Source: a virus. Taken from it: a stretch of 64,000 bases of DNA. Within the stretch, counting starts at the first letter, position 1; the number at the start of each line of letters is the position of its first letter. Below the pieces are notes generated by a model. That model saw only the letters and a list, made by a program, of their open reading frames with translations. It was not told the DNA's origin and did no database searches. A program made the translations under genes and the position numbers. Below, one piece after another: positions 6,781 through 62,069 of this stretch. The stretch covers positions 1-64,000 of IMG/VR virus record IMGVR_UViG_3300042569_001270. One strand, 5' to 3'.

Positions 6781-11526
<4,746 letters not shown>

Positions 11527-11593: not shown

Positions 11594-14500
11594 GTGGCTA
11601 AGAAGACTGCACCTGCTCCTACTCCTACTCCTACGCTCACCGCCGACACTGCGGTTCTTGATAAAAAGGCTGCGGAAGACGCCGCACGCAAGAAGTACCT
11701 TGAGGTCACTCTTCCTCAGAAGAAGGCGGCACACGCCAACTCTGCTCTTGAGCGTCACAAGGTCTGGGCCGGTAAGGACTTTATGAGTAGGCCCGAGCCG
11801 CACGGCTCTGCCCGCTCGTTTCTTACCTACAACACCGTCCCCTTTCACTACCCTGTTTCTCACGGCCACACCGAGCACGAGGACCCTGAACAGGTGCGGT
11901 ACAGCACTGTGATGGGTAGCCCACAGACGGGCGGCTACCGTATCACTCACGCGGGAAAGCACTCTTTGGTTGAGTCCTTCCCTATGGCGATGAACGCCGA
12001 GCGTGATGAGAACGGGGAGTTTGTTGATCCCAAAGCAGCTGAACGCGAGTCCTTTGGACCCGGAGGCCCCAAGCCGATCCCAAACGGGCTTCTGACAAAT
12101 CCCGGCATGGGCGACATCTACCGCGCACTTCAGCAGCATGTGGCGGGTCACCGCGCCAAGCTGTTCTCGCCCGAGGGCAAGGCCTTCCTTGAATCAGGTA
12201 AGGGCAAGGATGCTTACGATCATGTGACAAGTGACAAAGGCTTTACAGGCGGAGATCGAGACTTCCAGCGCTATGTTCTTGAGGCCATCTCTCCCAAGTC
12301 TGAGCGGGTGCTTGGTTCCAAGGGAAAGCCCGTTGATCATCCTCACGCCGCTCCGGGTGCTCATGGTCTTCGCGTGAACGACAACGGAGAGATCGCAGAG
12401 TCTCCCGACGCGTTCAACGGTTCGGCAGAGGAAGCCGCTCTCGCCTACCCTCACAGCGCCGACGAGTTCAGTGCCGTCGATAAGGCCGCTACGGCCAAGG
12501 AAAAGGCCGCTGCCAAGGAGGCCAAGGCCAAGGAGGCGGCTGCGGCAAAGGAAGCCAAGGCTGCTGGCAAAGGTGGCAAGGGTAAGAAGGGCGAGGCCCC
12601 TACTGCTGCTCCTCCTGCCGCTCCTGCCGCTCCTCCTGACGCCCCCGCGACGAAGGGGACCTTTGCCCGCAAGAAGCTTGATCCTGCTCTTGAGGAGGGC
12701 ATTGCTGCAGCACAGGCCGAGCAGTCGAAGACCACCTCGAAGACCTCAAAGACCTCAAAGACCGCCCCCGCTGCGGGTACGCAGAAGAAGGGTCGCGGGG
12801 GTCGCAAGGCCGCAGTTGCTGCTCCGTCTGCTCCGTCTGCTCCGGCTGCTACGGAGACTGCGGGTGCAATGCGGGACGCCGGTTTCCAGTCCAGCACTTC
12901 TGGGCGGCCCACCACGAGGACCGGTCAGCCGCTGAATCTGACGGCCAATATTGAGGAACTTCGTCGTCGTGTTTCGAGCGCCGTTGGCGACGAAGCGGCG
13001 GAAAAGATCACTCAGCCCGCTCCTCCTGTCACTACGACTCAGCCCCCTGCTGCTCCAACGGCTCAGCCTGCTGCCTCAACTTTTGATCCTCACAAGTTGT
13101 CCCTCGACGACTACACAAAGCTCCATGACAACCCCGCAGCACTGCACGGTGTCCTCAGTCATCTGAAGGACAACTTTCCTAATGTGTACGACGCCAGCCC
13201 TGATGTGCAGGCCGCGAAGAACATGGTTGAGCAGTTCCGCGACGCTGCAAAGAAGTCGGGCATCCGCTTCAACGGCACCAAGGTGGATGGGCGTGCGCAG
13301 ACCCCCGAGCAAGAGAACACGCTTGAGCAGCTTGATCAGGCTGTGAAGATGCTCCGTAGTGAGCGTATTAAGGCGGGGCACCGGGCGTACATTGACGCTG
13401 CTCTTGATCAAGGCAAAGACGACGAGATTCACAAAGACAACTTTGCTGCCCACAACATGCAGTTGCCCCAGTTCAAGCACCGTAGCTTTGACACTGAGGA
13501 CGAATTTGATCGGATGTTTACGTCGAAGCCGCAGCAGATGGAGCTTCCGCTTGCGGCTCCGAAGCCCAAGCCTGAAGCAGCAGCGCCTGAGGCGGCTCCT
13601 GCCGCTGCCGCTGCTACGGGCGGCCCCACTCCGGTGAAGGGCGACCTGCTCACCTCGCTCTCCGGCGGTGACACGGCTCCTCGTGGAATGGCCGGTAGCA
13701 TCGTCCCGACGCCTGTCCCGACGCTGCCCGAGGGCACGTCTCCTCAGGCCCGCTCGTACCACTTGATCGGCGCTGACGGGAGCATGAAGCACACGCTCAA
13801 CGCCAAGGTTATCGGCCAGCATGAGGGTACACACGGCGTCTACTCGACGCACGTTCAGGACGTAAATAATCCTGACGGTACGCACAGCCACCAGAACATG
13901 CTGCTCGTGCACCACGAGAAGGAGCCGAATAACCCCACGCCGACACCCAAGGTGCTCGACTCGCACAAGATCGTCGGTTCGGAAAACAAGGCAACCCTGA
14001 CGCCTCTTGCGCAGCAGACGAATCAGGCAGCCTCTGTTGACCACCTTCTTAACAACGTTGCCAAGCCGCATGCTGTTCAGGCAGCTTCAGCAAAAGCTGC
14101 TGCAGCCCCGACGCCCACTCCTGCACCCACTCCTGCGCCTCCTCCGTCCACCGGTATCAACCCTTCCGCTGATGCGCCTGCTCCCAAGCCCGCTAAGACC
14201 GGGGGGATGATGGCTCGACTGAAGGGCATGTTTGGTTTTGGTAAGGGTGGACTTGTTGTTGATCTTCGTAAGGCCAACAACATTTACAATCTGACCAAGG
14301 GTGTCGCGGCGGACCAGCCAAAGAAGTACACGAACAAGCAGGTAACCAAGACAGGCGGTATCAAGCACGTCTACAAGCTGCCTGCTGGTTCGTTCCAGAG
14401 TCCTGCTGGTGGCGGTGCGCCTAAGGTTGATAACGAGGTCAACCCGCAGGCCTTGTCCACCAAGCTGCGCACCACGAGTGGCACGCTGCTCCAGATTGCC

Positions 14501-14734
14501 AAGCGGTCTGGCGGGCCTCAGCAGTTTGCTCAGATCGTTCGTGAGCAGGCCCCCGCGTTTGTTCGCAAGCACGGAGTCACCGACGAGTACCTGATGTCCA
14601 TCTACCGCGCCCTTCACAATCGGGCGGCGGTACAGAAGGCGGAAAAAGATGATCCTTGTTGGGACGGCTACGAGATGGTTGGCATGAAGCGCAAGAACGG
14701 TCGGCGCGTCCCCAAGTGTGTTCCCGAGACCTAA
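11594..14734 (+). CDS. Second giant low-complexity head-module protein, 1046 aa
   Basis: GTG 11594 follows CGGAGG. The protein has an N-terminal Pro/Thr run, a folded-looking region (residues ~30-260 with KVWAGKDFM and DIYRALQQHVAGHRAK), Lys/Ala-rich linkers with a triplicated 9-bp repeat (ACCTCAAAG type, about 12733-12759), and an EEGIAAAQAEQSK peptide (from about residue 366) shared with the 1581-aa neighbour. The extreme C-terminus ends in DPCWDGYEMVGMKRKNG and VPKCVP, a short peptide also seen at the ends of unrelated phage head proteins. A GMMARLKGMFGFGKGG segment could be amphipathic. Probably an internal head protein; no catalytic motif seen. Confidence 0.65.
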   Translation: MAKKTAPAPTPTPTLTADTAVLDKKAAEDAARKKYLEVTLPQKKAAHANSALERHKVWAGKDFMSRPEPHGSARSFLTYNTVPFHYPVSHGHTEHEDPEQVRYSTVMGSPQTGGYRITHAGKHSLVESFPMAMNAERDENGEFVDPKAAERESFGPGGPKPIPNGLLTNPGMGDIYRALQQHVAGHRAKLFSPEGKAFLESGKGKDAYDHVTSDKGFTGGDRDFQRYVLEAISPKSERVLGSKGKPVDHPHAAPGAHGLRVNDNGEIAESPDAFNGSAEEAALAYPHSADEFSAVDKAATAKEKAAAKEAKAKEAAAAKEAKAAGKGGKGKKGEAPTAAPPAAPAAPPDAPATKGTFARKKLDPALEEGIAAAQAEQSKTTSKTSKTSKTAPAAGTQKKGRGGRKAAVAAPSAPSAPAATETAGAMRDAGFQSSTSGRPTTRTGQPLNLTANIEELRRRVSSAVGDEAAEKITQPAPPVTTTQPPAAPTAQPAASTFDPHKLSLDDYTKLHDNPAALHGVLSHLKDNFPNVYDASPDVQAAKNMVEQFRDAAKKSGIRFNGTKVDGRAQTPEQENTLEQLDQAVKMLRSERIKAGHRAYIDAALDQGKDDEIHKDNFAAHNMQLPQFKHRSFDTEDEFDRMFTSKPQQMELPLAAPKPKPEAAAPEAAPAAAAATGGPTPVKGDLLTSLSGGDTAPRGMAGSIVPTPVPTLPEGTSPQARSYHLIGADGSMKHTLNAKVIGQHEGTHGVYSTHVQDVNNPDGTHSHQNMLLVHHEKEPNNPTPTPKVLDSHKIVGSENKATLTPLAQQTNQAASVDHLLNNVAKPHAVQAASAKAAAAPTPTPAPTPAPPPSTGINPSADAPAPKPAKTGGMMARLKGMFGFGKGGLVVDLRKANNIYNLTKGVAADQPKKYTNKQVTKTGGIKHVYKLPAGSFQSPAGGGAPKVDNEVNPQALSTKLRTTSGTLLQIAKRSGGPQQFAQIVREQAPAFVRKHGVTDEYLMSIYRALHNRAAVQKAEKDDPCWDGYEMVGMKRKNGRRVPKCVPET

Positions 14735-15482: not shown

Positions 15483-18400
15483 ATGACCAAACTTCTCAAA
15501 AAGTCTGACGGTAACCCTGCAGAACCCTCAAAGATGGGCCGCCCTCCTGAGGGCAAGCCGAAGGATGCACAGGGTCACGCCGTAACCGGCGACGGTCACC
15601 GCATCGTAGAGAACCCCGGTATCTATGGAGGCAAGTGGTACCGCGACAAGCGTGGCTTCGTTCAGTACGGCGTCCTACAGCCCCGTGGTGCGCCTCTGCA
15701 GGGGCCACGCTTCGCCCCGCTCGGAGGTGCCAAGCCTCTGGCTACTCGTGCAGGAGGCAAGGCCGCACGAGGGGCCACTGCCTCGGCTGTCGAAACGCTC
15801 ACCGGCATCAGGAACATCTATGCGACTGCCAATGCCACAGGGTTTGGTCTGTCGAGTGTCAGCCCGCTCACGGCTCTTCTATCCGGCGAGATTCGTAACG
15901 AACTGAACCTTGGAAACGTAGACGTCAAAGACGTCAAAAAGATGATTAACACCGGTACCCTTCCAAGTGGTGCCGGTGTGCTGAGTGGGCTGATCGCCTC
16001 AAAACTTGGGCTTCCGCTGGACAGCCTCGAAGAGTTTGCTGGGCTGGTGCGAGCCGCAGAGCGGGGAGGCTTTGACGTTGAAGATGCGCTCGGGCGAATG
16101 ATTGACGAGCGGATGCGCCTGCCTGACGGCAGCATGCCCGATAACTACGAGGAGACCCGCGAACTCCTCATCGCGTCGGTTTTTGAAGCCTTTGACAGTC
16201 TTCAAGACGACCACGACGTGCAGACCGCCGTCTCGCAGGCGGTCAGTGCTGCACAGGCAAACGATTTTATTATTGAACAGGCTATTAACACGGTCAACAC
16301 TCACAGAGACAAGCTCGGCTCTATTTTTGATCACTCTGTTCCTGTAGAGACTCGTTTCGTCCGTTTCTTGGCCGTTTCGCGGGAGCTTGGGTTGCTGAGT
16401 TTCGTGCGCGACCTTGAGATGGTTCGCCAGCACTTCAGGCCAGACGGATCACCGGTACCTATTGGTGAGCAGCTGAAGCAGCTTGGCGCAGTTCGCATCA
16501 ACACAGCGGGCGTCAGCTGGATGATCCGCCGTCTTAACAACCTTGCTGGGACGGATCAGGCACACACAACGCTCGCGCAGATTTTGCCCGTCCTTCTTCG
16601 TTACGACGCGTGGCAGCGGGCAAAGGCTCTTGGCTCAGACGCCGATCAACAAGTTGCGTCGTTTACCACTCCTGATGGTGAAGCTCGTGGGGACTTTGTT
16701 CACAAGTTTGCACCGGGTACTGACCAGTTTGAGCGCTTCAACGCTGACCCATCGGCGTTCTTTGAAGACCCGCAGTGGCAGAGGGAAGGCAACCTCCCAA
16801 CGCAGGACGATGGCCTTGAGGTTGCGCTCGTCAACCAGCTAATCGCCGAGAGTCCTCCCGAGTTGCTTACTCGCAATAATGTACTTAACTTTATTAAACA
16901 TACAAACGCTGAAGGGGAGCGCTTTGCCTCGATGCTGGAAGACTACGCCTCAGGAAACATGGGGGCGTACGGCTACCACCTCACCAAAGCGTTCGCCGCA
17001 AACGCTGTGACCCTCAAGGACGCGTTTGACGACCGAGCAGTTGAGGGCATCCTCACCAAGCTCGCTGGGCGTGCTGACCGGATCGTGAAGGCTATGCAGG
17101 CTCGTGTAGCCCACCCAGAGGCAATCAAGGCCACGTTGCCCCCTGACACGCTCAAGCACCTTGAGACCGCTGGCTTCGGCGGGGTACCCATCACTGTTCT
17201 GCCCACCCAGCTTCGTGCTGTGGCGCACGCACTGGCAGCGGAGCGCTCCATCTGCGGGCTGGACGTCGGCCTCGGGAAGACACTGGTCGCCGCGCTCTTT
17301 GCGGCCTCCCTGCTTCACCAAAAAAAGTCGCAGATCGTCTTTCACGTTTTGCCAAAGATGACGATTGATCAGTACCCTGAGCAGCTCAGGACTTTCCTTG
17401 GTCCCAGCTTCCAGTACCGCAGCATCGCCACGCAGGACATCTCCACCCGAGGCGTGGACTACCCAGAGGCTCTTGCCACGCTAGAAGCCATCTTGGCGGG
17501 CAAGAAGCAGTTTGCTCCCAACGTGATCATCTCAAACTCTTGGCTGGACGGTGGCCGGGAGTTGGAGGACTTGAAGCGTGCTGAGGGGTTGAACGTCTAC
17601 GACAGCAAGACAAACCAGTTCATCCCAAACCCCGCACTTTCTGAGCAGGAGTACGAGGACCGTCTGGACAAGCTGATTCCCCAGCTTCGCTTCGTGCAGC
17701 TTATTAAAGCTATTCAAGAGAAGTACGGCGCGGCGTTTATTATTGACGAAGCTCACTCACCGGGCGCGGGTCTTCGTAACGAGAAGAACATCGCCTACAA
17801 AGTTTTCCGTCACATGACGGAAGGTGCTGACCACGTTCTGGGTATGACGGCAAACGCTGCGTCGAACGGTGTCAAAGACATCGTGACGATGATGGGAGCG
17901 ATCAACCCAGAGGCTGTCACCGAAGACGTGCGCAGACTGCAGGAGCAGTATGCCTCCGTTTCGATAGTCCCTAAGCTGGATGCTGACGGAAACCCGACTG
18001 GACAGCGGGTTCGTCAGTACAGCAACCTCGACAGCTTCATGCGCGGCTCAAAAGACTTGATGCCGTTCTTTTATCAAAAAGTAAAAAGCGATCCTGACGT
18101 GCGGGCGGAGCTTGAGTCTGCAGGCTTTACAGTCCCGCAGATGCGCATCCGTCGGCGCAACCACCCAGTGAGTCCCCTTCTGTCACAGTACCTCTCGATG
18201 GCCGAGAACGGGCACGACGACTACGTTCGGCTTGAGAAGGCTCGCATCCGTAACGAACGCAATATCAATCGTTATCGCAATTTTCTTGCAGGCCACAATC
18301 CTTATTACGCAGACAAGAACCTCTACCCAGACGAGGCTCTTTGGTCTCTTCGTACTGTGACTCGTGCGCAGAAGGACGACGATGGTAATTTTTATCGTGA

Positions 18401-20693
18401 TCCCGTCACGGGTGAGTACGCACTCTACGAACAGCCTGTCGCACAGGACTACAAGTTCAAGCCTCCGCGTAAAGACGTTCCCCTTCGCTGGGACGATGTG
18501 AAGGACGACAACACCAAAGCTGCCTTGTACAAGTACAATCTTGCTAAAAAGATTCGTCTTGACCCCGCTATGGTCTGGGGCAACGCCATGCCCGAGGCCC
18601 ATCGTGGGGCCGCGTTTGGCAAGGTTGAAGCTGCTGTCGAGGCAGTGCTTGAGCACATGAACAGCCCCGTCACGAACGACGGCTGCATCATCTTGGCCGT
18701 CGAAAGCGTGCAGGCGATGAAGGTGATTCGCGACCGGCTTCGCGAGGAGGGCGTTGACAGCCCGCTGATCGCTGAGTTCCGTGGTGACGGAGACAGCACC
18801 GTCGTTGACAAGCGCTTGGCTTCAGACCGTGACGCTGCTGCTAAGCTTATTAACAAGAAGCAGATAAAAGTCGCGCTGATGTCCATCCGACTGGCCGTCG
18901 GTCTGAACCTTCAGCACGCCTCCAAGATGGTGATGATTGAAGAGCCGAGCACCGTGCACCACATGGATCAAACTTTGGGGCGCATCAGCCGCATCGGCGG
19001 TAACTCACTGGCAGAGATTGAAATCCTGAACCTGAACACAGACGTGGACTTTAAGGCTCTCCGCAACCGTTATGAGAAAGCCTTGCAGGTCCTTCCGCTG
19101 TTCCAGCACGACGAGTTGCTGGCCACTTCCGACGCGCTACCCGCCCTCATCAACCACATCGAGGCGGGGCTTGAGCGGCTGGGCCTGCCGACGGGTCCTG
19201 ACTACCACGACGAGATGAAGCCGGTGGCCGACCGCGTAGCCCTTGCAGAGCAGCAGGACCGTCTCGGGCTGGGGGGTATCCCTCACGATCTTTCGCGCTT
19301 CAAACAGGTTATTAACGGTCCTGCCTCAAAGTTCTTGCGTATTCCTGCTTCAGCCACCGAGCAGGTCATCCGCTACGCTAAGAACGGCCTCAGCATGATT
19401 AACCAAAAAGCTGAAGCAAACGAAATTCTTTATCAAGAAAAAAAGCGCAGCAAGGACGACTACGAAAAGGTTAAAGAGGCTGTTGATCGCGACCGTGACT
19501 TGTTTATGATGACAACGTCTTTGTTTGGGCAGCAGAACATCGTTGTACCGGGCAAGTACAGTGCCGTCGTTCCTCAGTACGCGAGCTTCGAGTCCACGAG
19601 CGACATCAACCCGTTTGCGGTTCTGGTTTCACAGGCCCAGACACCGGATGCTCGACTCAAGCGCAAGGTCGTCACGAGCTTGATTGATACGCCTAATTCT
19701 GTGATCTCAGACTCAGACGTTCCGGGCGGCAACGACATTTACATTCACTACTACGCGTGGGAGCTTATTCATAAGTACGGTCTGAAGTCTGTTGCGGAGC
19801 TTGTTGAAGGACACGAGCGACAGATCGCAGAAGCTATGGGGCTTTGGAACGACACCTATCGACTGACTCGGTATGTGAAGTACACCAACATGCTGCGAGA
19901 CTGGGCGAAGCAGGGCTACATTCGCTGGACGGGTACTGAGCCTGCACAGCTGCCGTTGAAGACCCCAGAGCTTGGCGAGGTTCGTGGGATTCGGCCCGCA
20001 AGGCCTCCGCCTTACCTGACTGCGGAAGAGGCCCTCCTCCGCTTCATGCTGGCCACGTCCAAGGACCCAAACATGCTTGAGGCCATGCGGCAGTCGCCGG
20101 GCATCCAGCAGGAACTGAAGCACCTTGGACTTGAGCACAAGGACCCCGAGAAGACAGTGCTGACGCCGGGGGCCGCTGCTCACACCCCTACATTTGATCC
20201 TGTTTCTGTGTGGGACGGACGGCAGCACCTCACGGTGACGCCTGCGGAGTTGGGTCAGTTCTGGAGCAACGTGAAGGCGTACCTCGATGGCGGAGGCTCA
20301 ATCAGTAGCGTGGACGAGGCGCATCGTGCGTTGACGGGCAGCACTGGTCCTGTAGGGGAAAGTGCTCAAGCAACGCGCATTATTATGTACGAGTTCGAGA
20401 AGCGTGGACTGACTCGCTCGACGTACACGCCAAGCGTTCCTCAGATTCGCGTCTCTCGTATCGGCAAGCACAACCTTCCCAACTTTGAAGACCTTCCTGC
20501 AGAGGGCAAAGTTATTAAAGGCGACGACCTTGAACACTACTGGGAGACGCTCTACAACTACTTGGACGCAGGCAACAGTCTGACGAGCCACGAAGGCCTC
20601 GCATCCGTTCTCGGGCTGAAACCAGAAGACCAATCACTGACACGCCACATCATGGACGAGTTCATCCGCCAGCGACTCGTCGTGAGGAGCTAA
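15483..20693 (+). CDS. SNF2-like superfamily 2 helicase/translocase in the head module, 1736 aa
   Basis: ATG 15483 follows GAGGG. The motor core lies in residues ~570-1200: Walker A DVGLGKT (594-600), motif Ia VLPKMTIDQ, motif II DEAH (755-758), motif III-like MTANAASNG (usually LTATP), then motif V IRLAVGLNLQHAS and motif VI QTLGRISRIGG (from 1163). The ~570-aa N-terminal and ~500-aa C-terminal extensions have no motif I recognise. SNF2-like proteins move along duplex DNA. Placement between portal and protease, not with replication genes, suggests a virion-associated enzyme, comparable in position and size to the P1 DarB-type antirestriction proteins, though no methylase motif is visible. 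The helicase call is secure; the role is inference. Confidence 0.85.
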   Translation: MTKLLKKSDGNPAEPSKMGRPPEGKPKDAQGHAVTGDGHRIVENPGIYGGKWYRDKRGFVQYGVLQPRGAPLQGPRFAPLGGAKPLATRAGGKAARGATASAVETLTGIRNIYATANATGFGLSSVSPLTALLSGEIRNELNLGNVDVKDVKKMINTGTLPSGAGVLSGLIASKLGLPLDSLEEFAGLVRAAERGGFDVEDALGRMIDERMRLPDGSMPDNYEETRELLIASVFEAFDSLQDDHDVQTAVSQAVSAAQANDFIIEQAINTVNTHRDKLGSIFDHSVPVETRFVRFLAVSRELGLLSFVRDLEMVRQHFRPDGSPVPIGEQLKQLGAVRINTAGVSWMIRRLNNLAGTDQAHTTLAQILPVLLRYDAWQRAKALGSDADQQVASFTTPDGEARGDFVHKFAPGTDQFERFNADPSAFFEDPQWQREGNLPTQDDGLEVALVNQLIAESPPELLTRNNVLNFIKHTNAEGERFASMLEDYASGNMGAYGYHLTKAFAANAVTLKDAFDDRAVEGILTKLAGRADRIVKAMQARVAHPEAIKATLPPDTLKHLETAGFGGVPITVLPTQLRAVAHALAAERSICGLDVGLGKTLVAALFAASLLHQKKSQIVFHVLPKMTIDQYPEQLRTFLGPSFQYRSIATQDISTRGVDYPEALATLEAILAGKKQFAPNVIISNSWLDGGRELEDLKRAEGLNVYDSKTNQFIPNPALSEQEYEDRLDKLIPQLRFVQLIKAIQEKYGAAFIIDEAHSPGAGLRNEKNIAYKVFRHMTEGADHVLGMTANAASNGVKDIVTMMGAINPEAVTEDVRRLQEQYASVSIVPKLDADGNPTGQRVRQYSNLDSFMRGSKDLMPFFYQKVKSDPDVRAELESAGFTVPQMRIRRRNHPVSPLLSQYLSMAENGHDDYVRLEKARIRNERNINRYRNFLAGHNPYYADKNLYPDEALWSLRTVTRAQKDDDGNFYRDPVTGEYALYEQPVAQDYKFKPPRKDVPLRWDDVKDDNTKAALYKYNLAKKIRLDPAMVWGNAMPEAHRGAAFGKVEAAVEAVLEHMNSPVTNDGCIILAVESVQAMKVIRDRLREEGVDSPLIAEFRGDGDSTVVDKRLASDRDAAAKLINKKQIKVALMSIRLAVGLNLQHASKMVMIEEPSTVHHMDQTLGRISRIGGNSLAEIEILNLNTDVDFKALRNRYEKALQVLPLFQHDELLATSDALPALINHIEAGLERLGLPTGPDYHDEMKPVADRVALAEQQDRLGLGGIPHDLSRFKQVINGPASKFLRIPASATEQVIRYAKNGLSMINQKAEANEILYQEKKRSKDDYEKVKEAVDRDRDLFMMTTSLFGQQNIVVPGKYSAVVPQYASFESTSDINPFAVLVSQAQTPDARLKRKVVTSLIDTPNSVISDSDVPGGNDIYIHYYAWELIHKYGLKSVAELVEGHERQIAEAMGLWNDTYRLTRYVKYTNMLRDWAKQGYIRWTGTEPAQLPLKTPELGEVRGIRPARPPPYLTAEEALLRFMLATSKDPNMLEAMRQSPGIQQELKHLGLEHKDPEKTVLTPGAAAHTPTFDPVSVWDGRQHLTVTPAELGQFWSNVKAYLDGGGSISSVDEAHRALTGSTGPVGESAQATRIIMYEFEKRGLTRSTYTPSVPQIRVSRIGKHNLPNFEDLPAEGKVIKGDDLEHYWETLYNYLDAGNSLTSHEGLASVLGLKPEDQSLTRHIMDEFIRQRLVVRS

Positions 20694-29136: not shown

Positions 29137-30975
29137 ATGTCGCAGATCGTCTATTTCAACGGCACTAGGTTGGTTCGCCCCGGCGGTGCCTCGAAGCTCG
29201 ACGCTTCATCCTTCGAGGGCGTGACTGTCGAGGGCATCGGCAGCATCGGGATCATCGGTGAGGCCGACAACGGTGAAGATGGTGTCGCCATCGCCTTCAC
29301 CAACGCCTCCGCGATGGAGCAGTACTTCGGCAGCGGCGCTCTCGCCAACGCCGCGCGTGTGGCCTTCAGGCCGCTGAGCGACGCTCGCGTGGGCGACGCC
29401 AAGGCCCAGACGGTCTACGCCTACAAGACCAACGCGGGTACGGCGGCTTCGCTGAACCTCGCTGACGGTACCTCCGTGGTGAAGCTGACGGCTGCCAAGA
29501 AGGGCACCATCGGCAACACCTACACGGCGCTGGTCTCGTACGACGGCACCACCAAGCGGCGGACGTACACGATCACCCCCAACAGCAGCTCCGGCCTCAG
29601 GCAGGAGAGGATCGTTGTTAACGAGGGTGCCAAGCTCAAGATTTGGTACAAGGGCGCGGGTACGGTTCCCAAGGTCTTTACGACTGCCGACTCGACGAAC
29701 ATCGGCTGGCTGCAGAAGATCACCCTGAACGCGACGACCACGCCTGCGGATCAGGACAAGCTGGAGATCGCGTTTGACGACGGGACGATCTCGTCCATTC
29801 AGGACCTTGCCACCCGCATCAACGGGTCGCTGAACACCGCTGGCACCCCTGTGAACGTCTGGGGTGCCACGGTCGTCAGCACGTCGGACGCCCTTCGCTT
29901 CCACCCGCGCACGCTCGACACCATCGCTTCCCCCGGCCCCACCGTGGGTACGGCGGAGGTCAGCGCGACGGACATCTCGGGTCTGCTGCAGGACTCGCTG
30001 GATGCGATCAACAACAGCCTGACGCTGGTGACGGCGGCCCTGCCTGCTTCGTTCACGAAGCGCTCTGTGCCGGTGGCGTTCACCGAGCCGCTGCAGCTGA
30101 CCGGCGGCGCACTCGGTACGACTGCTGTGGGTGCTCTCCAGACCGCTCTGGACAGATTCAAGGCCATCGACGTTCCGGGCCTTGTGATCACCAGCACGGA
30201 CGCTGCGAGCATCAAGCTCCTTGCGAATCACTGCACGGAGATGTCGAGCACCGGATCAAGCAAGAAGGAGCGCACGGGCTACGCGGGCGTCACTGGCTCC
30301 AAGGCGGAGATTCTTGCGTGCGCTGGGCAGAACGCTGGGTGCGCCGACCTCGTTCTGACCTGTCAGAAGTGGCACACGGTTGATCGCTTTGCGAACAACG
30401 TGGTCTACCCTGAGTGGGCTTCCGCTCTTGCTCTTTGCTCCGCTCGCGCGGGCCTTGAGCCGGGCGAGCCGCTGACGTGGAAGTTCTTCTCGGCCACCGA
30501 CATCTCGTCGGCCAACACCGCTTGGACTCCGCAGGGCGACGCTGAGGACCTCATCCTCGGTGGTGTGTGCGTGTTCGAGCGCAACCGCTCGGGCGTCAAG
30601 CTGCTGAAGGGCATCACGACCTACACGCAGTTTGATAACGACGTGTTTGTCGAGGAGTCCATCATCACGAACGTGAAGGCCATGTCGAAGGAGTTCCGTG
30701 AGCTTCTGGAGCTTCGCTACACGGGCCGCAAGGCCACTCCGGCGATCCTCGGAGATATGCGGGCCACTGCCGTGGAGTTCTGGGGTCAGAAGCGTGCGCA
30801 GGGCCGGATCGTGGACTCCGTCGTCAACGGGCAGACGACGAAGTTTGCCTACCGGAACCTCTTGATCTCAGCCAACCGTGATCAGGTGTTCGTGGACGTC
30901 GAGATCAGCCCGGTCTCCGGCATCAACTTCCAGCTTGAGACGATCCGTCTCGTCCCGGCGACGCTGAGCGTCTAA
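29137..30975 (+). CDS. Contractile tail sheath protein
   Basis: ATG 29137 follows GAGGAGAG. The 612-aa protein has the sheath C-terminal core: YTQFDNDVFVEESIITNVKA, then EFRELLELRYTGRKATP, then VFVDVEISPVSGINF near the end, preceded by CADLVLTCQKWHTVDRFANN. It polymerises around the tail tube and contracts on infection. Large central beta-rich domains (residues ~90-330) are probably surface insertions. This gene proves a myovirus morphology. Confidence 0.9.
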   Translation: MSQIVYFNGTRLVRPGGASKLDASSFEGVTVEGIGSIGIIGEADNGEDGVAIAFTNASAMEQYFGSGALANAARVAFRPLSDARVGDAKAQTVYAYKTNAGTAASLNLADGTSVVKLTAAKKGTIGNTYTALVSYDGTTKRRTYTITPNSSSGLRQERIVVNEGAKLKIWYKGAGTVPKVFTTADSTNIGWLQKITLNATTTPADQDKLEIAFDDGTISSIQDLATRINGSLNTAGTPVNVWGATVVSTSDALRFHPRTLDTIASPGPTVGTAEVSATDISGLLQDSLDAINNSLTLVTAALPASFTKRSVPVAFTEPLQLTGGALGTTAVGALQTALDRFKAIDVPGLVITSTDAASIKLLANHCTEMSSTGSSKKERTGYAGVTGSKAEILACAGQNAGCADLVLTCQKWHTVDRFANNVVYPEWASALALCSARAGLEPGEPLTWKFFSATDISSANTAWTPQGDAEDLILGGVCVFERNRSGVKLLKGITTYTQFDNDVFVEESIITNVKAMSKEFRELLELRYTGRKATPAILGDMRATAVEFWGQKRAQGRIVDSVVNGQTTKFAYRNLLISANRDQVFVDVEISPVSGINFQLETIRLVPATLSV

Positions 30976-31002
30976 GCCCTTCACACGAGAGAGAGGTGAC
31001 AC

Positions 31003-31512
31003 ATGGCTGTCCTTACTGGTTCACGAGCGTTGTTCAAGATGAACGTTGCTGGAGGTGCTGAGGCCAAGGTTGGCTACGCCTTCGGCGTAGACATCGACGA
31101 AGAGATCATGCACGAGGAGGTCCAGACGCTGGACTCCCTCTCGGTCACGGAGCACGTTCCCGTTGCCTACCGCGTGAACATGTCCGCCGAGTTGTTCCGC
31201 ACCATCCCCACGGGCGGTAAGACCGTCGTCGGTGAGGACGGCGTGTCGAAGGACTCGACAGCGCTCGCGCAGGGCATGAAGGAAGCGGGCCTGATGGCGA
31301 GGATCGGTAACGGTGACTCTGCCGCCCTCACGCAGGCGCTTCTCGTGGCCAAGCTGTACGATGCGGGCGCGAACAACGCTGCCATCGGAGAGGTCTCTGG
31401 CGTGCGCGTGGTCAGCAATCGCTTCTCGGTGCGTGCCCGCCAGATCGTTGCTGACAACGTCCGCTTCGTCGCTCGGCGCTTCAAGGACTACTCGGAGTTG
31501 TTCCCGACGTAG
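31003..31512 (+). CDS. Tail tube protein
   Basis: ATG 31003 follows GAGAGAGG. The 169-aa protein lies directly after the sheath, and its pattern (NVAGGAEAKVGYAFGVDID, EEVQTLDSLSVTEHVPVAYR, NRFSVRARQIVADNVRFVAR) fits the tube-type beta barrel with two long hairpins. A strong terminator follows, as often seen after abundantly made tube proteins. Confidence 0.8.
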   Translation: MAVLTGSRALFKMNVAGGAEAKVGYAFGVDIDEEIMHEEVQTLDSLSVTEHVPVAYRVNMSAELFRTIPTGGKTVVGEDGVSKDSTALAQGMKEAGLMARIGNGDSAALTQALLVAKLYDAGANNAAIGEVSGVRVVSNRFSVRARQIVADNVRFVARRFKDYSELFPT

Positions 31513-31542
31513 TGGCGTTATCAAGACGGTTCTGGTAGAAGG

Positions 31543-31575
31543 AGCCTGCGGAGAAATCCGCAGGCTTTTTTCTTA
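31543..31575 (+). terminator. Rho-independent terminator after the tube gene
   Basis: AGCCTGCGGA (31543-31552), GAAA loop, TCCGCAGGCT (31557-31566), then TTTTTTCTT. A ten-pair perfect stem with a T-tract is a classic intrinsic terminator; it likely limits read-through from sheath/tube into chaperone and tape-measure genes. Confidence 0.9.
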
Positions 31576-31589
31576 ACAAGGGAGCAACC

Positions 31590-32030
31590 ATGACGACCGA
31601 GAACGACATCGAGCTGAAGGAAGAGATCGCAGAATACGCCGAGATCGGTGAGGACCTGAAGCCGGGGCAGACTCGTGTGCAGGCCATCGAGGCCGACGCG
31701 AAGGTCAAGCGCTTCAAGAACAGTCACACGTTCCTGTTCGAGCACAACTCCGCTCTTGATAAGCGCGTGTTCTCTGGGACGATCACAATCAAGCGCCTCA
31801 ACATCGGTGAGCTGGCTCGGGCCGAGACGGAGATCGCTCGCCGCAACACTGGCCTCAACCCTAGCGATCCGATTTCGTTCTTCAACGAGCGGCTCATCAC
31901 TGTGACCTCGCGCGTCGTCGATGGACCGGACTGGGCGAAGAACGTCGAGAACAGCGACGAGCTTCACGATCCTCTTGTCGTCCAGCGCTTGTGGGAAGAG
32001 GTGCAGAAGTACGAAAACTCGTTTCGTTGA
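31590..32030 (+). CDS. Tail assembly chaperone, upstream frame (G-like)
   Basis: ATG 31590 follows AAGGGAG. The 146-aa protein has beta strands (FLFEHNSALDKRVFSGTITI) and a helical C-terminus, as in the first protein of tail assembly chaperone pairs, and it sits in the expected place between tube and tape measure. It ends UCG-UUU-CGU-UGA, which is a candidate +1 frameshift site joining it to the downstream frame. Confidence 0.75.
   Translation: MTTENDIELKEEIAEYAEIGEDLKPGQTRVQAIEADAKVKRFKNSHTFLFEHNSALDKRVFSGTITIKRLNIGELARAETEIARRNTGLNPSDPISFFNERLITVTSRVVDGPDWAKNVENSDELHDPLVVQRLWEEVQKYENSFR
32019..32030 (+). promoter_or_regulatory. Candidate programmed +1 frameshift site (UUU-CGU-UGA)
   Basis: At 32022-32024 a UUU codon is followed by CGU and then UGA. 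Slipping one base forward moves tRNA-Phe from UUU to UUC, a perfect match, and leads to GUU GAG UUU in the downstream frame. The core UUU-CGU is the same as the shift site of influenza PA-X, and the adjacent stop adds a pause as in RF2. The downstream frame has no usable start of its own. Confidence 0.6.
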
Positions 32031-32412
32031 GTTTTATCAACAACGACTCAAGGGTCTTCGTAAGATCGCTGAAGAGAATCTGAAGAGCGAGTTCCTCCGT
32101 CGGTACATCTGCAAGAAGTACATGATGCCACCGACGGACCCTCGCTACCTCGCCTACACGCCAGAAGCCCTCTGGATCGAGTGGTTCGAGGACATGCTGG
32201 AGAAGGACCCTGACAAGCTCAAGGAAGCCTTCGTCACCAAGGAAGAGGCGAACGGAGCGGTCTTCACTGGGAACAAGGCCTTCGACGAGGCTGAGGCTCT
32301 GGCCGTGAGCGGCGACTACGCTGCTCTGGACAGGCTTACGTCGTCTTGGGACACTGGATCGTCACCCGTCGAAGAGCCTCCAGAAGAAGGGTTTGTCGAC
32401 GTCTACAAGTAG
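32026..32412 (+). CDS. Tail assembly chaperone, downstream frame (T-like extension)
   Basis: This frame is open through the end of the upstream ORF. The first plausible protein sequence begins exactly after the candidate shift site: VEFYQQRLKGLRKIAEENL, then a helix-rich region (RRYICKKYMMPPTDPRYLAY, then FEDMLEKDPDKLKEAFV). The fusion with the upstream 144 or so residues would be about 270 aa. No ribosome binding site with a start lies near this junction. Such G/GT fusions interact with the tape measure during tail assembly. Confidence 0.65.
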   Translation, partial: VEFYQQRLKGLRKIAEENLKSEFLRRYICKKYMMPPTDPRYLAYTPEALWIEWFEDMLEKDPDKLKEAFVTKEEANGAVFTGNKAFDEAEALAVSGDYAALDRLTSSWDTGSSPVEEPPEEGFVDVYK

Positions 32413-32421
32413 GGAGCTTCG

Positions 32422-34779
32422 ATGGCAGCGCCTTCTCGTCCTCTTAATAAAAGGCATGACACCCTTATTCAAGAGGCTCTCAAGCAGCAGAACACCATCT
32501 ACACTGAAGAGCAGCAGGCTCATGTAGATTACAAAGCTGCGCTGAAGAACCGCGACAAGGACATCGGGACGTTCCGCGATGCACGGCATAAGCTCAAGCG
32601 TGCGGAGGCCGCGTCTAACAAGTACAGCTCTGCCCTGATCGACTCTATTAAGACAAACGCCGCTGCGTTTGAGGGCATCTACGATACTTGGGAAGACCTT
32701 ATTAAAGCCAACCGCCGCTTTGAAGCAAACATGAAGCAGGCGGGAGGCGACCTCCGCAGGTCACAGCGGAAGAACTCCCAGCAAGGCTTCCAGCGGCAGA
32801 TGATGCTCCAAGCCGGAGCGCAGGGCGTCAACGCTATCGCGGAACTGAGCACCGTCAATAGGCTCCCTGTCATCGGTGGTGCCATTCAGAGCGGTGTCGG
32901 TACTGCCGTCAACGCGGGCCTCATGGGAGCGGGGGCGACAACAGCAGCGGCGATGGGCGGTTTGGCGTTCTTAGGTGCTGGGATCGCTGGAGGCGTTGCT
33001 AACGCCTACAACCAGTTCGAGAGCGAGGAGGCTCTTGAGCGTCAGCTTGGGCAGCGTATGGGCGTCGGCGCAGGCCGAGGCTTCATTCGCGACATGCGCA
33101 AGCAGGGTCTCACCCGCGAGCAGATCGGTGGGCTTGGTAGCGGGCTGTCCCAGACTGTTGGATCAACCAGCGAGGCTGTAGGCGTCTATCAGATGCAGAC
33201 GGCTTTTGGGATCAATCCAATGGGGGCGATGGGGGCGATGGCCTCCACTGGTCAGGGTAGCCAGCTCCGCATGGTTCAAAACGCGATCAGCGTAGGCATG
33301 GCGCAAGGCCTTGCTCGTGGTCGCTTTGGCGAGATGGTGGACGGACTGCAGCACCTCGTTCGTCAGCAGGGGATTGGCGTCGGTGTTGGCGGTGAGGAGC
33401 TTGGCGGGACACTCGGCTACATGGGTGCGCTGGGCAGCCGCATGGGTATCAAGGGTTCACAGTTTATGGGCGTGATGGGGCAGCTGGACGCCTCTGCTCG
33501 CGGCAAGACTGGTGGCCTGTCTGAGAGCATTAGCTTCCTCTCGGCCTACAACTACTTGCAGGCTGGGGGTCGAGGTGCGCTGGAGGGTCTCGGCTCTTCC
33601 GGTTCTGGTGGTCGGGTTACACCCTTTGACGTTCAGGAGATGATGGAGCGGGGATCAACCGGCAAGGGGGGTATGGGTCGTATTCAAATTACTAACATGC
33701 TGGAACAGTACCGGCGCATCGCTGGTACGTCCGCTGCTGATATGGAGATGTCAGCACGCAGGGCGAAAACTCCTGAGGAGCAGGCGCAGATTGACGCTGC
33801 CAAGGGGCGCTACCAGATGATGCAGCAGGGTCTGGTGACCGGTGGCGCTGCTGCCAACCTGACAGTTGCTCGCCAGTTGACCGACGCTTTCCTCACAACC
33901 GGAAACATTAGTGATAAAGACATCAAGACTGCGCAGGACGCTGGTAAGTCTCAACAAGAAAAGTCGTTCGACGAGATTCACGAGCAGACCGGTCTACAGC
34001 AGCGCATTGCCTACGGTATCGAGGCCCTTGGGCGCAGCATGCCGGGCACAGGCGGCACGTTTAATCGCACGTTTGAGGGCCTTTTGGCAGGGCTTAACGG
34101 TGAAGCCGCTACTAGGTTTATCACTCCGGGCGAGCGGGCAGCAGGGTACTTTAACAATGACGACTCATCATACGGTGAGGCTCGCTTTTCTGAAGGGCGT
34201 GTAAAGCTTTATCAAGAAGCTCAAGCTCGCCGTCGTGCAGAGTTTAAGAAGCAAGGGTGGGATTACTGGGAAGACCCAAGTGACTTTAACCTTGTTTACG
34301 AGCCTTCTAAAGAAGGTCGCGCACTACAAGATTTTAACAAAAACGGTGTAACCGAGGATTTTAAGTCTCTGCTCTCGACGTTTACTGAGACCATTACTAA
34401 CGACCCTGCCGTAAGTGAGGAAATGAAGGCCGCCGCTCAGGCGGCACAAGGTATGCTGCTTCGTGAGATTGCTGACCCCGCAACGGAGCTTCGTAACTTT
34501 AAGGGTATGGGCGGCGGCGTAGTCCCCCTCAAGGACTCTGCAGGCGGACAGTTTACGCCCGAGCAACTGGCAAATATCGCTAACGTTGGCGGCGGACTTG
34601 CCGACGTCTTTGTTGGTGGTGTGGGTAGTAGGAGTATTGAGGACTTGCGGGCTTTGACCTCTCAGTTGGCGAGGGGTGAACTTTCCCTCCCCAGTATTCA
34701 GCGGTCAGAAGATGTGATCCAATTTTACGTTAAAAGGCTCCAAGAGCTTCAGCCCCTCCCCGGTCAAGCCACGAGGTAG
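32422..34779 (+). CDS. Tape measure protein
   Basis: ATG 32422 follows GGGAGC. The 785-aa protein starts with a long charged coiled coil (residues 1-110), then hydrophobic Gly/Ala-rich stretches (VIGGAIQSGVGTAVNAGLMG, AAAMGGLAFLGAGIAGGV) that look membrane-active, then long helical segments to the C-terminus. Position after the chaperones and this layout are standard for tape measure proteins, which set tail length and may help DNA enter. It is modest in size, implying a short-to-medium tail if length scales normally. Confidence 0.7.
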   Translation: MAAPSRPLNKRHDTLIQEALKQQNTIYTEEQQAHVDYKAALKNRDKDIGTFRDARHKLKRAEAASNKYSSALIDSIKTNAAAFEGIYDTWEDLIKANRRFEANMKQAGGDLRRSQRKNSQQGFQRQMMLQAGAQGVNAIAELSTVNRLPVIGGAIQSGVGTAVNAGLMGAGATTAAAMGGLAFLGAGIAGGVANAYNQFESEEALERQLGQRMGVGAGRGFIRDMRKQGLTREQIGGLGSGLSQTVGSTSEAVGVYQMQTAFGINPMGAMGAMASTGQGSQLRMVQNAISVGMAQGLARGRFGEMVDGLQHLVRQQGIGVGVGGEELGGTLGYMGALGSRMGIKGSQFMGVMGQLDASARGKTGGLSESISFLSAYNYLQAGGRGALEGLGSSGSGGRVTPFDVQEMMERGSTGKGGMGRIQITNMLEQYRRIAGTSAADMEMSARRAKTPEEQAQIDAAKGRYQMMQQGLVTGGAAANLTVARQLTDAFLTTGNISDKDIKTAQDAGKSQQEKSFDEIHEQTGLQQRIAYGIEALGRSMPGTGGTFNRTFEGLLAGLNGEAATRFITPGERAAGYFNNDDSSYGEARFSEGRVKLYQEAQARRRAEFKKQGWDYWEDPSDFNLVYEPSKEGRALQDFNKNGVTEDFKSLLSTFTETITNDPAVSEEMKAAAQAAQGMLLREIADPATELRNFKGMGGGVVPLKDSAGGQFTPEQLANIANVGGGLADVFVGGVGSRSIEDLRALTSQLARGELSLPSIQRSEDVIQFYVKRLQELQPLPGQATR

Positions 34780-60032: not shown

Positions 60033-60046
60033 CCTCTACAGGTTGT

Positions 60047-60093
60047 GGTGCTGAGGAGCACCTACACAAGGGGCAGCGGACCCTTATTTCCGC
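60047..60093 (+). promoter_or_regulatory. Leader hairpins before the ribonucleotide reductase gene
   Basis: GGTGCT (60047-60052), GAGG loop, AGCACC (60057-60062); then GCGGA (60076-60080) and TCCGC (60089-60093). They fill the 75-base gap before the RNR start. A cobalamin riboswitch is far longer, so this is not one. May modulate translation. Confidence 0.35.
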
Positions 60094-60107
60094 GCAGGAG
60101 TGATCCC

Positions 60108-62069
60108 ATGCAGCCTTCTCAGCAGTTCGTCTACGTCCGCACCTACGCCCGCTGGCTCCCCGATCTGGAGCGTCGGGAACTCTCGTGGGAGGAAACGGTT
60201 GATCGCTACCTCAGCTTCATGCGTGGCACCTACGGCGACAAGGTCCCTGCGAAGGTTTGGGACAAGATCGCCAAGCACATGAAGGAGCTTGGGTCTGTCG
60301 GCTCGATGCGGGCGACGTGGACTGCTGGGTCGGCCCTGAGCGAGAACCACATCTCGGCGTACAACTGTGCCTACCTGCCCTACATTGATCTCAAAGCAGT
60401 GGCCGAGCACCTCTACATTCTCATGCATGGGACAGGCGTCGGCTTCAGCACCGAGAAGGAATACATCGATCAGATGCCTGAGGTCCCGATGCAGTCTTCT
60501 GCGGGGGCTGGTGTTCATGTCGTGGCCGACTCCAAGGAGGGCTGGGCTGAGGCCCTGCATTTCGGTCTCTCGGCTTGGTTTCTTGGGCTGGACGCCGAGT
60601 TCGACTACTCACAGGTCCGCCCCCGTGGTGCACGGCTCAAGAAGTTTGGGGGCCGCGCCTCTGGACCGGACCCGCTGAAGAAGCTGCTGGAGTTCGTGCG
60701 CGCCACGATCATGGGTGCACAGGGTCGTAAGCTCACTTCGCTGGAGTGGCTCGACATCGGCAACATGATCGGTGAGGTCGTCGTCGTTGGCGGCGTTCGT
60801 CGCTCTGCGGAGATCAACTTCAGCGATCTCAACGACCAGCTCATTCGGGACGCCAAGAAGCACCCGTTCCCAGTGCACCGCTACATGAGCAACAACAGCG
60901 TGGCCTACAAGGTCAAGCCCTCCGTCGTGGAGTTTATGAAGGAGTGGACGGCTCTGGCCGAGAGCGGCTCCGGTGAGCGCGGCATCTTCAACCTGCACGC
61001 CATCGAGAACCATCTCGCCAAGCATGCCAAGCGGCGTAAGTTTGATGCCGACTTCCGCTCGAACCCGTGCGGAGAGATCATTCTTCGCCCGTTCCAGTTC
61101 TGTAACCTCTCGGAGATTATCGTTCGCTCTGACGACGACTTCGACAACTTGATCGAGAAGGTCGAGGTGGCGACGTGGCTGGGCACCATGCAGGCCGGTC
61201 TGACGGACTTCAAGTGGTTGCGTCCTGAGTGGAAGAAGAACTGCGAGGAGGAAGCCCTCCTCGGCGTCAGTCTCACCGGTCAGATGGACAACATGGAGCT
61301 GATGACCCCAGAGAAGCTCGCCATTCTCAAGGCCTATGCAGTCAAAGTGAACGCCAAGGCCGCTGCGGCTATCGGGATCAACGCTTCTGCGGCCATTACC
61401 ACCGGCAAGCCCTCGGGCACGGTCTCCCAGCTGGCTCTCTGCGGCTCGGGGGCGCACCCGTGGTACGACCAGTACTTCATCCGTCGGTACCGGATCAGCG
61501 CTACTGATCCCGTCTTCCGCATGCTGCGCGATCAGGGCTTCAAGTTCGTCCCTGAGAACGGGCAGGGGCCGCTGGACGTTGAACGCCGACGGCACGCCCT
61601 CATGGGAGAAGGCTGGTCTCCGTCGCAGATTGAAGCCCTTGCCCCAGCGTGGACCGAAGAGCAGGTCAATACTTGGGTGGTCGAGTTCCCCACGGAGGCC
61701 CCTCAGGGCGCAGTCACCCGTCACGAGGTCTCCTGCATCGACCAGCTGGAATGGTACCTGCGGATTATGAAGCACTGGTGCGAGCACAACCAGTCGATCA
61801 CCGTTTATGTGAAGGACGACGAGTGGTTGAAGGTCGGTGCTTGGGTTTACGATCACTTTGAGGAGCTAGTCGGTGTGAGCTTCCTCCCGTACGACGGCGG
61901 CAACTACACGCTGGCTCCATACGAGACGATCACGAAGGCGGAGTACTTCCTTCTGAAGGGCCGTCAGCCCGAGATCGACTGGTCGCAGCTTCCCGTCTAC
62001 GAGAAGATGGACATGACCGAGGGGGCCAAGACGCTCGCCTGTACTGGAAACACTTGCGAGATGACTTGA
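60108..62069 (+). CDS. Class II (B12-dependent) ribonucleoside-triphosphate reductase
   Basis: ATG 60108 follows AGGAGTG. The 653-aa protein has the redox cysteines of the monomeric RTPR type: C87 (YNCAYLPY), C321 and E323 (NPCGEI), C332 (FCNLSE, eleven residues after C321, as in the Lactobacillus enzyme), a GKPSGTVSQLALCGSGA region, and a C-terminal C-x4-C (ACTGNTCEMT). Reduces NTPs to dNTPs using adenosylcobalamin, without oxygen. Paired with ThyX it makes the phage self-reliant for DNA precursors. Confidence 0.9.
   Translation: MQPSQQFVYVRTYARWLPDLERRELSWEETVDRYLSFMRGTYGDKVPAKVWDKIAKHMKELGSVGSMRATWTAGSALSENHISAYNCAYLPYIDLKAVAEHLYILMHGTGVGFSTEKEYIDQMPEVPMQSSAGAGVHVVADSKEGWAEALHFGLSAWFLGLDAEFDYSQVRPRGARLKKFGGRASGPDPLKKLLEFVRATIMGAQGRKLTSLEWLDIGNMIGEVVVVGGVRRSAEINFSDLNDQLIRDAKKHPFPVHRYMSNNSVAYKVKPSVVEFMKEWTALAESGSGERGIFNLHAIENHLAKHAKRRKFDADFRSNPCGEIILRPFQFCNLSEIIVRSDDDFDNLIEKVEVATWLGTMQAGLTDFKWLRPEWKKNCEEEALLGVSLTGQMDNMELMTPEKLAILKAYAVKVNAKAAAAIGINASAAITTGKPSGTVSQLALCGSGAHPWYDQYFIRRYRISATDPVFRMLRDQGFKFVPENGQGPLDVERRRHALMGEGWSPSQIEALAPAWTEEQVNTWVVEFPTEAPQGAVTRHEVSCIDQLEWYLRIMKHWCEHNQSITVYVKDDEWLKVGAWVYDHFEELVGVSFLPYDGGNYTLAPYETITKAEYFLLKGRQPEIDWSQLPVYEKMDMTEGAKTLACTGNTCEMT

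Follow-up and report, generated by a model that had tools for sequence, protein, structure and literature searches.

A predicted +1 ribosomal frameshift at UUU-CGU in a viral tail assembly chaperone gene, with the same site in phages and archaeal viruses

How is a reading frame translated when it lacks a start codon and its recognizable protein sequence sets in exactly where the upstream gene comes to an end? This question is raised by a locus in the first 64,000 bases (positions 1-64000, from here on the window) of the 81,339-base virus record IMGVR_UViG_3300042569_001270, in which a pair of overlapping frames sits between the genes in the tail tube and the tape measure positions. The answer, in our view, is very probably a programmed +1 ribosomal frameshift at UUU-CGU, within a tail assembly chaperone (TAC) gene. 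The site, the +1 frame, the missing start, the homology of the fused product and the conservation of UUU_CGN can all be read from the sequence, and it is from these that the case is built.

The upstream ORF (TAC-N, 31590-32030, on the plus strand, as are all the tail features described here) encodes 146 amino acids, and it ends with GAA AAC TCG TTT CGT TGA. The original prediction, which placed TCG-TTT-CGT-TGA at 32019-32030, proves exact in its coordinates, with UCG in the E site, UUU (32022-32024) in the P site, CGU (32025-32027) in the A site, and UGA at 32028-32030. An in-frame UUU_C followed by a CGN codon is thus present inside the overlap of the 0 and the +1 frames, and TAC-N would be the product of normal termination at this UGA. 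The +1 frame is free of stops from 31906 to 32412, and its extension beyond the site, TAC-C (32026-32412), has GTT as its first codon and TAG (32410-32412) as its stop. The absence of a start from this frame, also part of the prediction, is borne out, as the first ATG, GTG, or TTG after the slip is found at 32122, 32 codons downstream. The start chosen by the ORF finder, ATG 31921, falls within the upstream gene, and the stretch encoded from there is rich in serine and arginine; sensible protein in the +1 frame is found from the slip point (FVEFYQQRLKGLRKIAEENLKSEF...; the frame as read from the slip onward, VEFYQQRLKGLRKIAEENLKSEFLRRYICKKYMMPPTDPRYL...). TAC-C is predicted to be translated only after a shift, as part of a fusion of 273 amino acids, TAC-NC (31590-32412), in which one base is skipped.

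It is the fusion that is recognizable as a chaperone. Two PHROG families of tail assembly chaperones match it, phrog_25000 (E=1e-4, residues 45-217) and phrog_4988 (residues 21-191), both matches spanning residue 145, where the frames meet, while neither half alone has a convincing PHROG family match. Over residues 63-213, hhalign aligns the fusion with a profile of Gram-negative TACs (PHB04, Dolphis, Touem01, ST4, and others) at 96%, E=4.5e-9; a profile comparison with the SPO1 group gives E=1.2e-6. When each half is compared alone with the Gram-negative group, the alignment of the N half, a weak one (E=0.004), runs to its last residue, F145, and that of the C half starts at its residue 3, with a probability of 91%, in agreement with the claim that good protein sequence begins in the +1 frame right after the slip point. 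The two parts join at the Phe of the slip codon, which is one of the six invariant columns in our first alignment, of six lineages. The profile built from these first six fusions was too diverse for scanning, and AlphaFold2, run on the single fusion sequence, gave an unusable model (pLDDT 42).

The neighboring genes define the setting. The tail sheath gene (29137-30975; phrog_279 tail sheath, E=1e-44), with tblastn matches in SPO1-like, Thermus, Exiguobacterium, and Bordetella phages, assigns the module to the SPO1-like group with contractile tails. The gene that follows (31003-31512) is taken for the tail tube from its position after the sheath and from a weak PHROG virion protein match, and between it and the TAC genes lies a strong hairpin followed by a T-run, resembling an intrinsic terminator (31538-31571; fold -24.9 kcal/mol, z -7.1). 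This hairpin is absent from the list of a simple terminator scan; a Listeria phage of the SPO1-like group is likewise reported to have a terminator after its tube gene (PMC12282133). Downstream of the pair, an ORF of 785 amino acids (32422-34779), with no convincing match in PHROG or Pfam, is the probable tape measure protein by position. The major capsid protein (MCP) is 36% identical to that of the SPO1 group (phrog_752, E=7e-83), and homologues of a Herelleviridae-type capsid and contractile tail module (MCP, sheath) are present in a GC-rich phage whose record, maybe partial, measures 81 kb, versus about 125-170 kb for Herelleviridae genomes. The region 31000-34000 has no DNA similarity to reference phages, and when the genes of the window were themselves used as DNA and protein queries against IMG/VR, a phage collection, and GTDB genomes, no close relative emerged, so the distant relatives were reached via the sheath. 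Elsewhere in the window, three very large ORFs are found between the portal and the head protease (6781-11526, 11594-14734, and 15483-20693, of 1581, 1046, and 1736 amino acids, respectively), the first with no PHROG match, the first and the second with no Pfam match, and the third with a weak helicase-like match, and the same window contains a ParB-like gene (235-1020) and a ribonucleotide reductase (60045-62069).

An alignment of related phages had been named as a check on the prediction, and its result is consistent: the 28 reference phages that carry the homologous pair of genes all have their second ORF in the +1 frame, with an in-frame TTT-C inside the overlap, this being TTT-CGN in 27, with Bacillus phage Yucatan (TTT-CAA) as the sole exception. 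The overlap is only 17 nt in the Staphylococcus, Listeria, Enterococcus, and some of the Bacillus phages, so the position of the site in these is forced. A profile search of IMG/VR uncovered 41 further loci, 37 of them non-identical, and in these the second ORF is in +1 in every case (37/37), with TTT-C in 36 and TTT-CGN in 29, the departures from the latter being CTG, CAA, and one TTT-TGC. Sites were found by seeking an in-frame TTT-C in the overlap, and as loci without one were also reported (one, L076), the TTT-C count is not forced. Loci from a Geminicoccus and a Microvirga genome agree, with TTT-CGC and TTT-CGA, respectively, the Microvirga locus having an additional TTT-CGC 21 nt upstream. 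When duplicates are removed and these two genome loci are kept outside the count, 57 distinct loci remain, forming 19 clusters at 45% identity, of which 57 have UUU, 51 have CGN, 21 have UCC in the E site, and 19 have UCC_UUU_CGN, the exact PA-X core, even though, the lineages being related, these are not counts of independent trials. The other A-site codons are CAA (3), CUG (2), and UGC (1), and the role of CGN is therefore not absolute. The variant sites include TTT-CTG in one clade (L065-L067, L071-L074) and TCC-TTT-TGC in another (L076), natural changes that could show what part the A-site codon plays. The +1 position of the second half holds at every TAC locus examined, in SPO1-like myophages of Firmicutes, Gram-negative, and Thermus hosts and in haloarchaeal Hafunaviridae. 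An avoidance of CGG, which is read by a different tRNA, was considered for the A site from its count of 0 in 29 loci at first, and was dropped when the larger set turned out to contain three. Nothing consistent was seen in 29 loci by way of a 3' RNA structure or an upstream Shine-Dalgarno-like stimulator; in the window, the region downstream of the site folds no better than shuffles, and Rfam gave no match.

The site is kept beyond what the protein needs. Outside it, TTT accounts for 56% of the Phe codons in these fused genes and CGN for 56% of the Arg codons; at the site, the Phe codon is UUU in 57 of 57, and where Arg follows, its codon is CGN in 51 of 51. The contrast is greatest in GC-rich phages, where TTT makes up 5-15% of Phe codons (7 of 131 in the Dolphis module, 12 of 154 in PHB04, 27 of 192 in HSTV-2), yet the slip codon is UUU. 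Because the slip codon is decoded once, its third base is free of constraint from the +1 frame, and the conservation of this base speaks for a tRNA that leaves UUU and pairs again with UUC. Elsewhere in the window, the long ORFs contain only 5 in-frame TTT-CGN, versus about 14 expected, a scarcity that makes chance a poor explanation for the site and that possibly reflects avoidance of a slip site.

From these data we infer not only the occurrence of the shift but also its efficiency, its tRNA mechanics, and its role in assembly. The majority of ribosomes would decode UCG-UUU-CGU-UGA and terminate, producing TAC-N. In the shift, with the CGN A site unfilled, the tRNA-Phe (GAA anticodon) would slip one base forward, from UUU to UUC, its wobble pair improving from G-U to G-C, and such a slip of a single tRNA would explain every constant feature of the site. 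The two forms of the chaperone may then act in fixed proportion to each other, with the tape measure protein and the tail tube as their targets, by analogy with gpG and gpGT of lambda. In lambda and in other TACs of the -1 type, a short and a long chaperone are likewise made in ratio by frameshifting, as proposed here, but through a -1 tandem slip on a heptamer, as opposed to a +1 slip of one tRNA. One element of the original prediction has to be corrected, a pause at CGU plus the stop. The adjacent UGA does not belong to the signal and was discarded as a driver of the slip, since the distance from the CGN codon to the 0-frame stop ranges among relatives from 3 to 123 nt; and with CGU not rare in the phage (315 of its 1248 Arg codons), scarcity of the codon offers little ground for expecting a pause.

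As to other explanations, one would treat the downstream ORF as an independent gene, with translation beginning at a start codon that belongs to it (ATG 32122, for example) or resuming beyond the UGA by coupled re-initiation. The annotators of the relatives did assign the second ORF its own start, and T4-like phages are reported to make TACs without frameshifting, to go by the title of a paper cited in PMC12846349. We nevertheless consider this very improbable, as no ATG, GTG, or TTG is found in frame for 32 codons past the slip in the window, and in relatives for as many as 44, protein homology starts immediately after the slip point, and the conservation of UUU_CGN would have no reason without a slip. 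A backward slip by two bases, as employed by the tail chaperone of phage Mu (PMC3498833), would land in the same frame, adding one extra residue; its chances appear slimmer still, since the tRNA-Phe would have to re-pair with CGU, CCU, ACU, GAU, or CAU, depending on the phage, all non-cognate, while a conserved UUU followed by C fits +1 only, and PA-X, with the same core, was demonstrated to shift by +1 by mass spectrometry (PMC3498833). A sequencing indel or a decayed gene, conceivable for a single virus record, has next to no likelihood when the same +1 layout and site recur in dozens of independently sequenced phages, isolates included. Equally negligible is transcriptional slippage, which would likewise mix frames, as polymerase slippage needs a much longer run than the three T before a C at this site, and the conserved unit is the codon-phased UUU_CGN.

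The +1 frameshift, then, can be compared with systems already described. SPO1 gp10.2/gp11.1 and the other Herelleviridae TACs share with the window the location between the tail tube and the tape measure, the +1 frame, the homologous fusion, and the TTT-CGN site. In SPO1, whose GenBank record annotates gp10.2-gp11.1 as a +1 slippage, the site is TCC_TTT_CGT (L006:8641-8649); the fusion of the window is only about 22% identical to that of SPO1, and its 0-frame stop follows directly after CGU. The authors of the Moonbeam genome called their own +1 chaperone shift unusual (PMC4299906), and the original prediction likewise held +1 shifts to be rare in tail chaperones. This assessment has to be revised, as hundreds of SPO1-like phage genomes (589 records listed) possess the homologous gene pair, and the +1 shift had already been noted for SPO1, Moonbeam, and HSTV-2. 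In many Herelleviridae records the +1 half of the chaperone carries the label “RNA polymerase beta subunit” or “RNA polymerase” (second ORFs of L009, L010, L019, L020, L021, L025, L026, and L027); rather than a polymerase, the ORF so labelled is the fusion's C half.

The second comparison is with influenza A virus, in which the UCC_UUU_CGU site was defined and mass spectrometry proved the shift that yields PA-X, and with the UUU_CGN class of sites proposed for amalgaviruses, fijiviruses, and chronic bee paralysis virus (PMC3498833, PMC5052127). As at these sites, the window has UUU in the P site, CGN in the A site, and a +1 shift in prospect, and the trans-frame residues SFV are identical to those of PA-X. 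The differences are that the E-site codon is UCG rather than UCC, which is stimulatory in PA-X and not strict for the class, and that CGU is not rare. In PA-X, changing UCC lowered shifting without abolishing it, and changing CGU to CGG halved it, the role of the A-site codon being called uncertain (PMC3498833). A PA-X-like +1 slip on UUU_C joining two chaperone halves, as originally predicted, is supported by the fusion homology and the conservation of the site; what does not stand is the view that such a core is an oddity in a phage, as the site is an instance of a PA-X-like frameshift signal that extends across the lineage, in phages as in archaeal viruses. The phages and archaeal viruses differ from the PA-X class in relying on bacterial and archaeal ribosomes and in encoding unrelated proteins, which suggests that the same slip is used convergently.

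Haloarchaeal Hafunaviridae extend the comparison to a third domain. The chaperone of the myovirus HSTV-2 has been described as very likely +1 (PMC5009743) and is annotated as a joined +1 gene. HSTV-2 has AAG TCC TTT CGC AGA within an overlap of 59 nt, a relative of it from IMG/VR has TCC TTT CGC, and HF2 has AAG TTT CGC AGA; the HSTV-2 and HF2 TACs thus resemble that of the window in the +1 second ORF, with UCC_UUU_CGC or AAG_UUU_CGC in the overlap. Profile comparison detected no sequence homology between these TACs and those of the SPO1 type or of the window, and both deep common descent and convergence are possible.

That chaperones of the SPO1 type and of HSTV-2 shift by +1 is already known, as annotation. 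The signal itself is apparently so far unnamed in phages and archaeal viruses: we found no literature naming the UUU_CGN motif in them, a full-text search of openly available papers for the motif and frameshifting in phages returning only the PA-X paper (PMC3498833), where the class had been proposed for eukaryotic viruses only. For forward shifts, no general slip motif is known, according to a 2024 paper on frameshift prediction (PMC10885494). On balance, we lean toward the view that UUU_CGN, often as UCC_UUU_CGN, is a general +1 signal on the ribosomes of all three domains, which would have become fixed early on in tail chaperones across a large branch of bacterial viruses with contractile tails, arisen or been kept independently in archaeal tailed viruses, and been hit upon anew by influenza and by RNA viruses of plants. 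If phages and haloviruses do use UUU_CGN, annotators would have a motif to use on the hundreds of genomes in which the second half of the chaperone now carries a false start or the “RNA polymerase beta subunit” label, and SPO1 in Bacillus subtilis, along with the haloviruses, would offer laboratory systems for understanding why UUU before CGN slips across domains.
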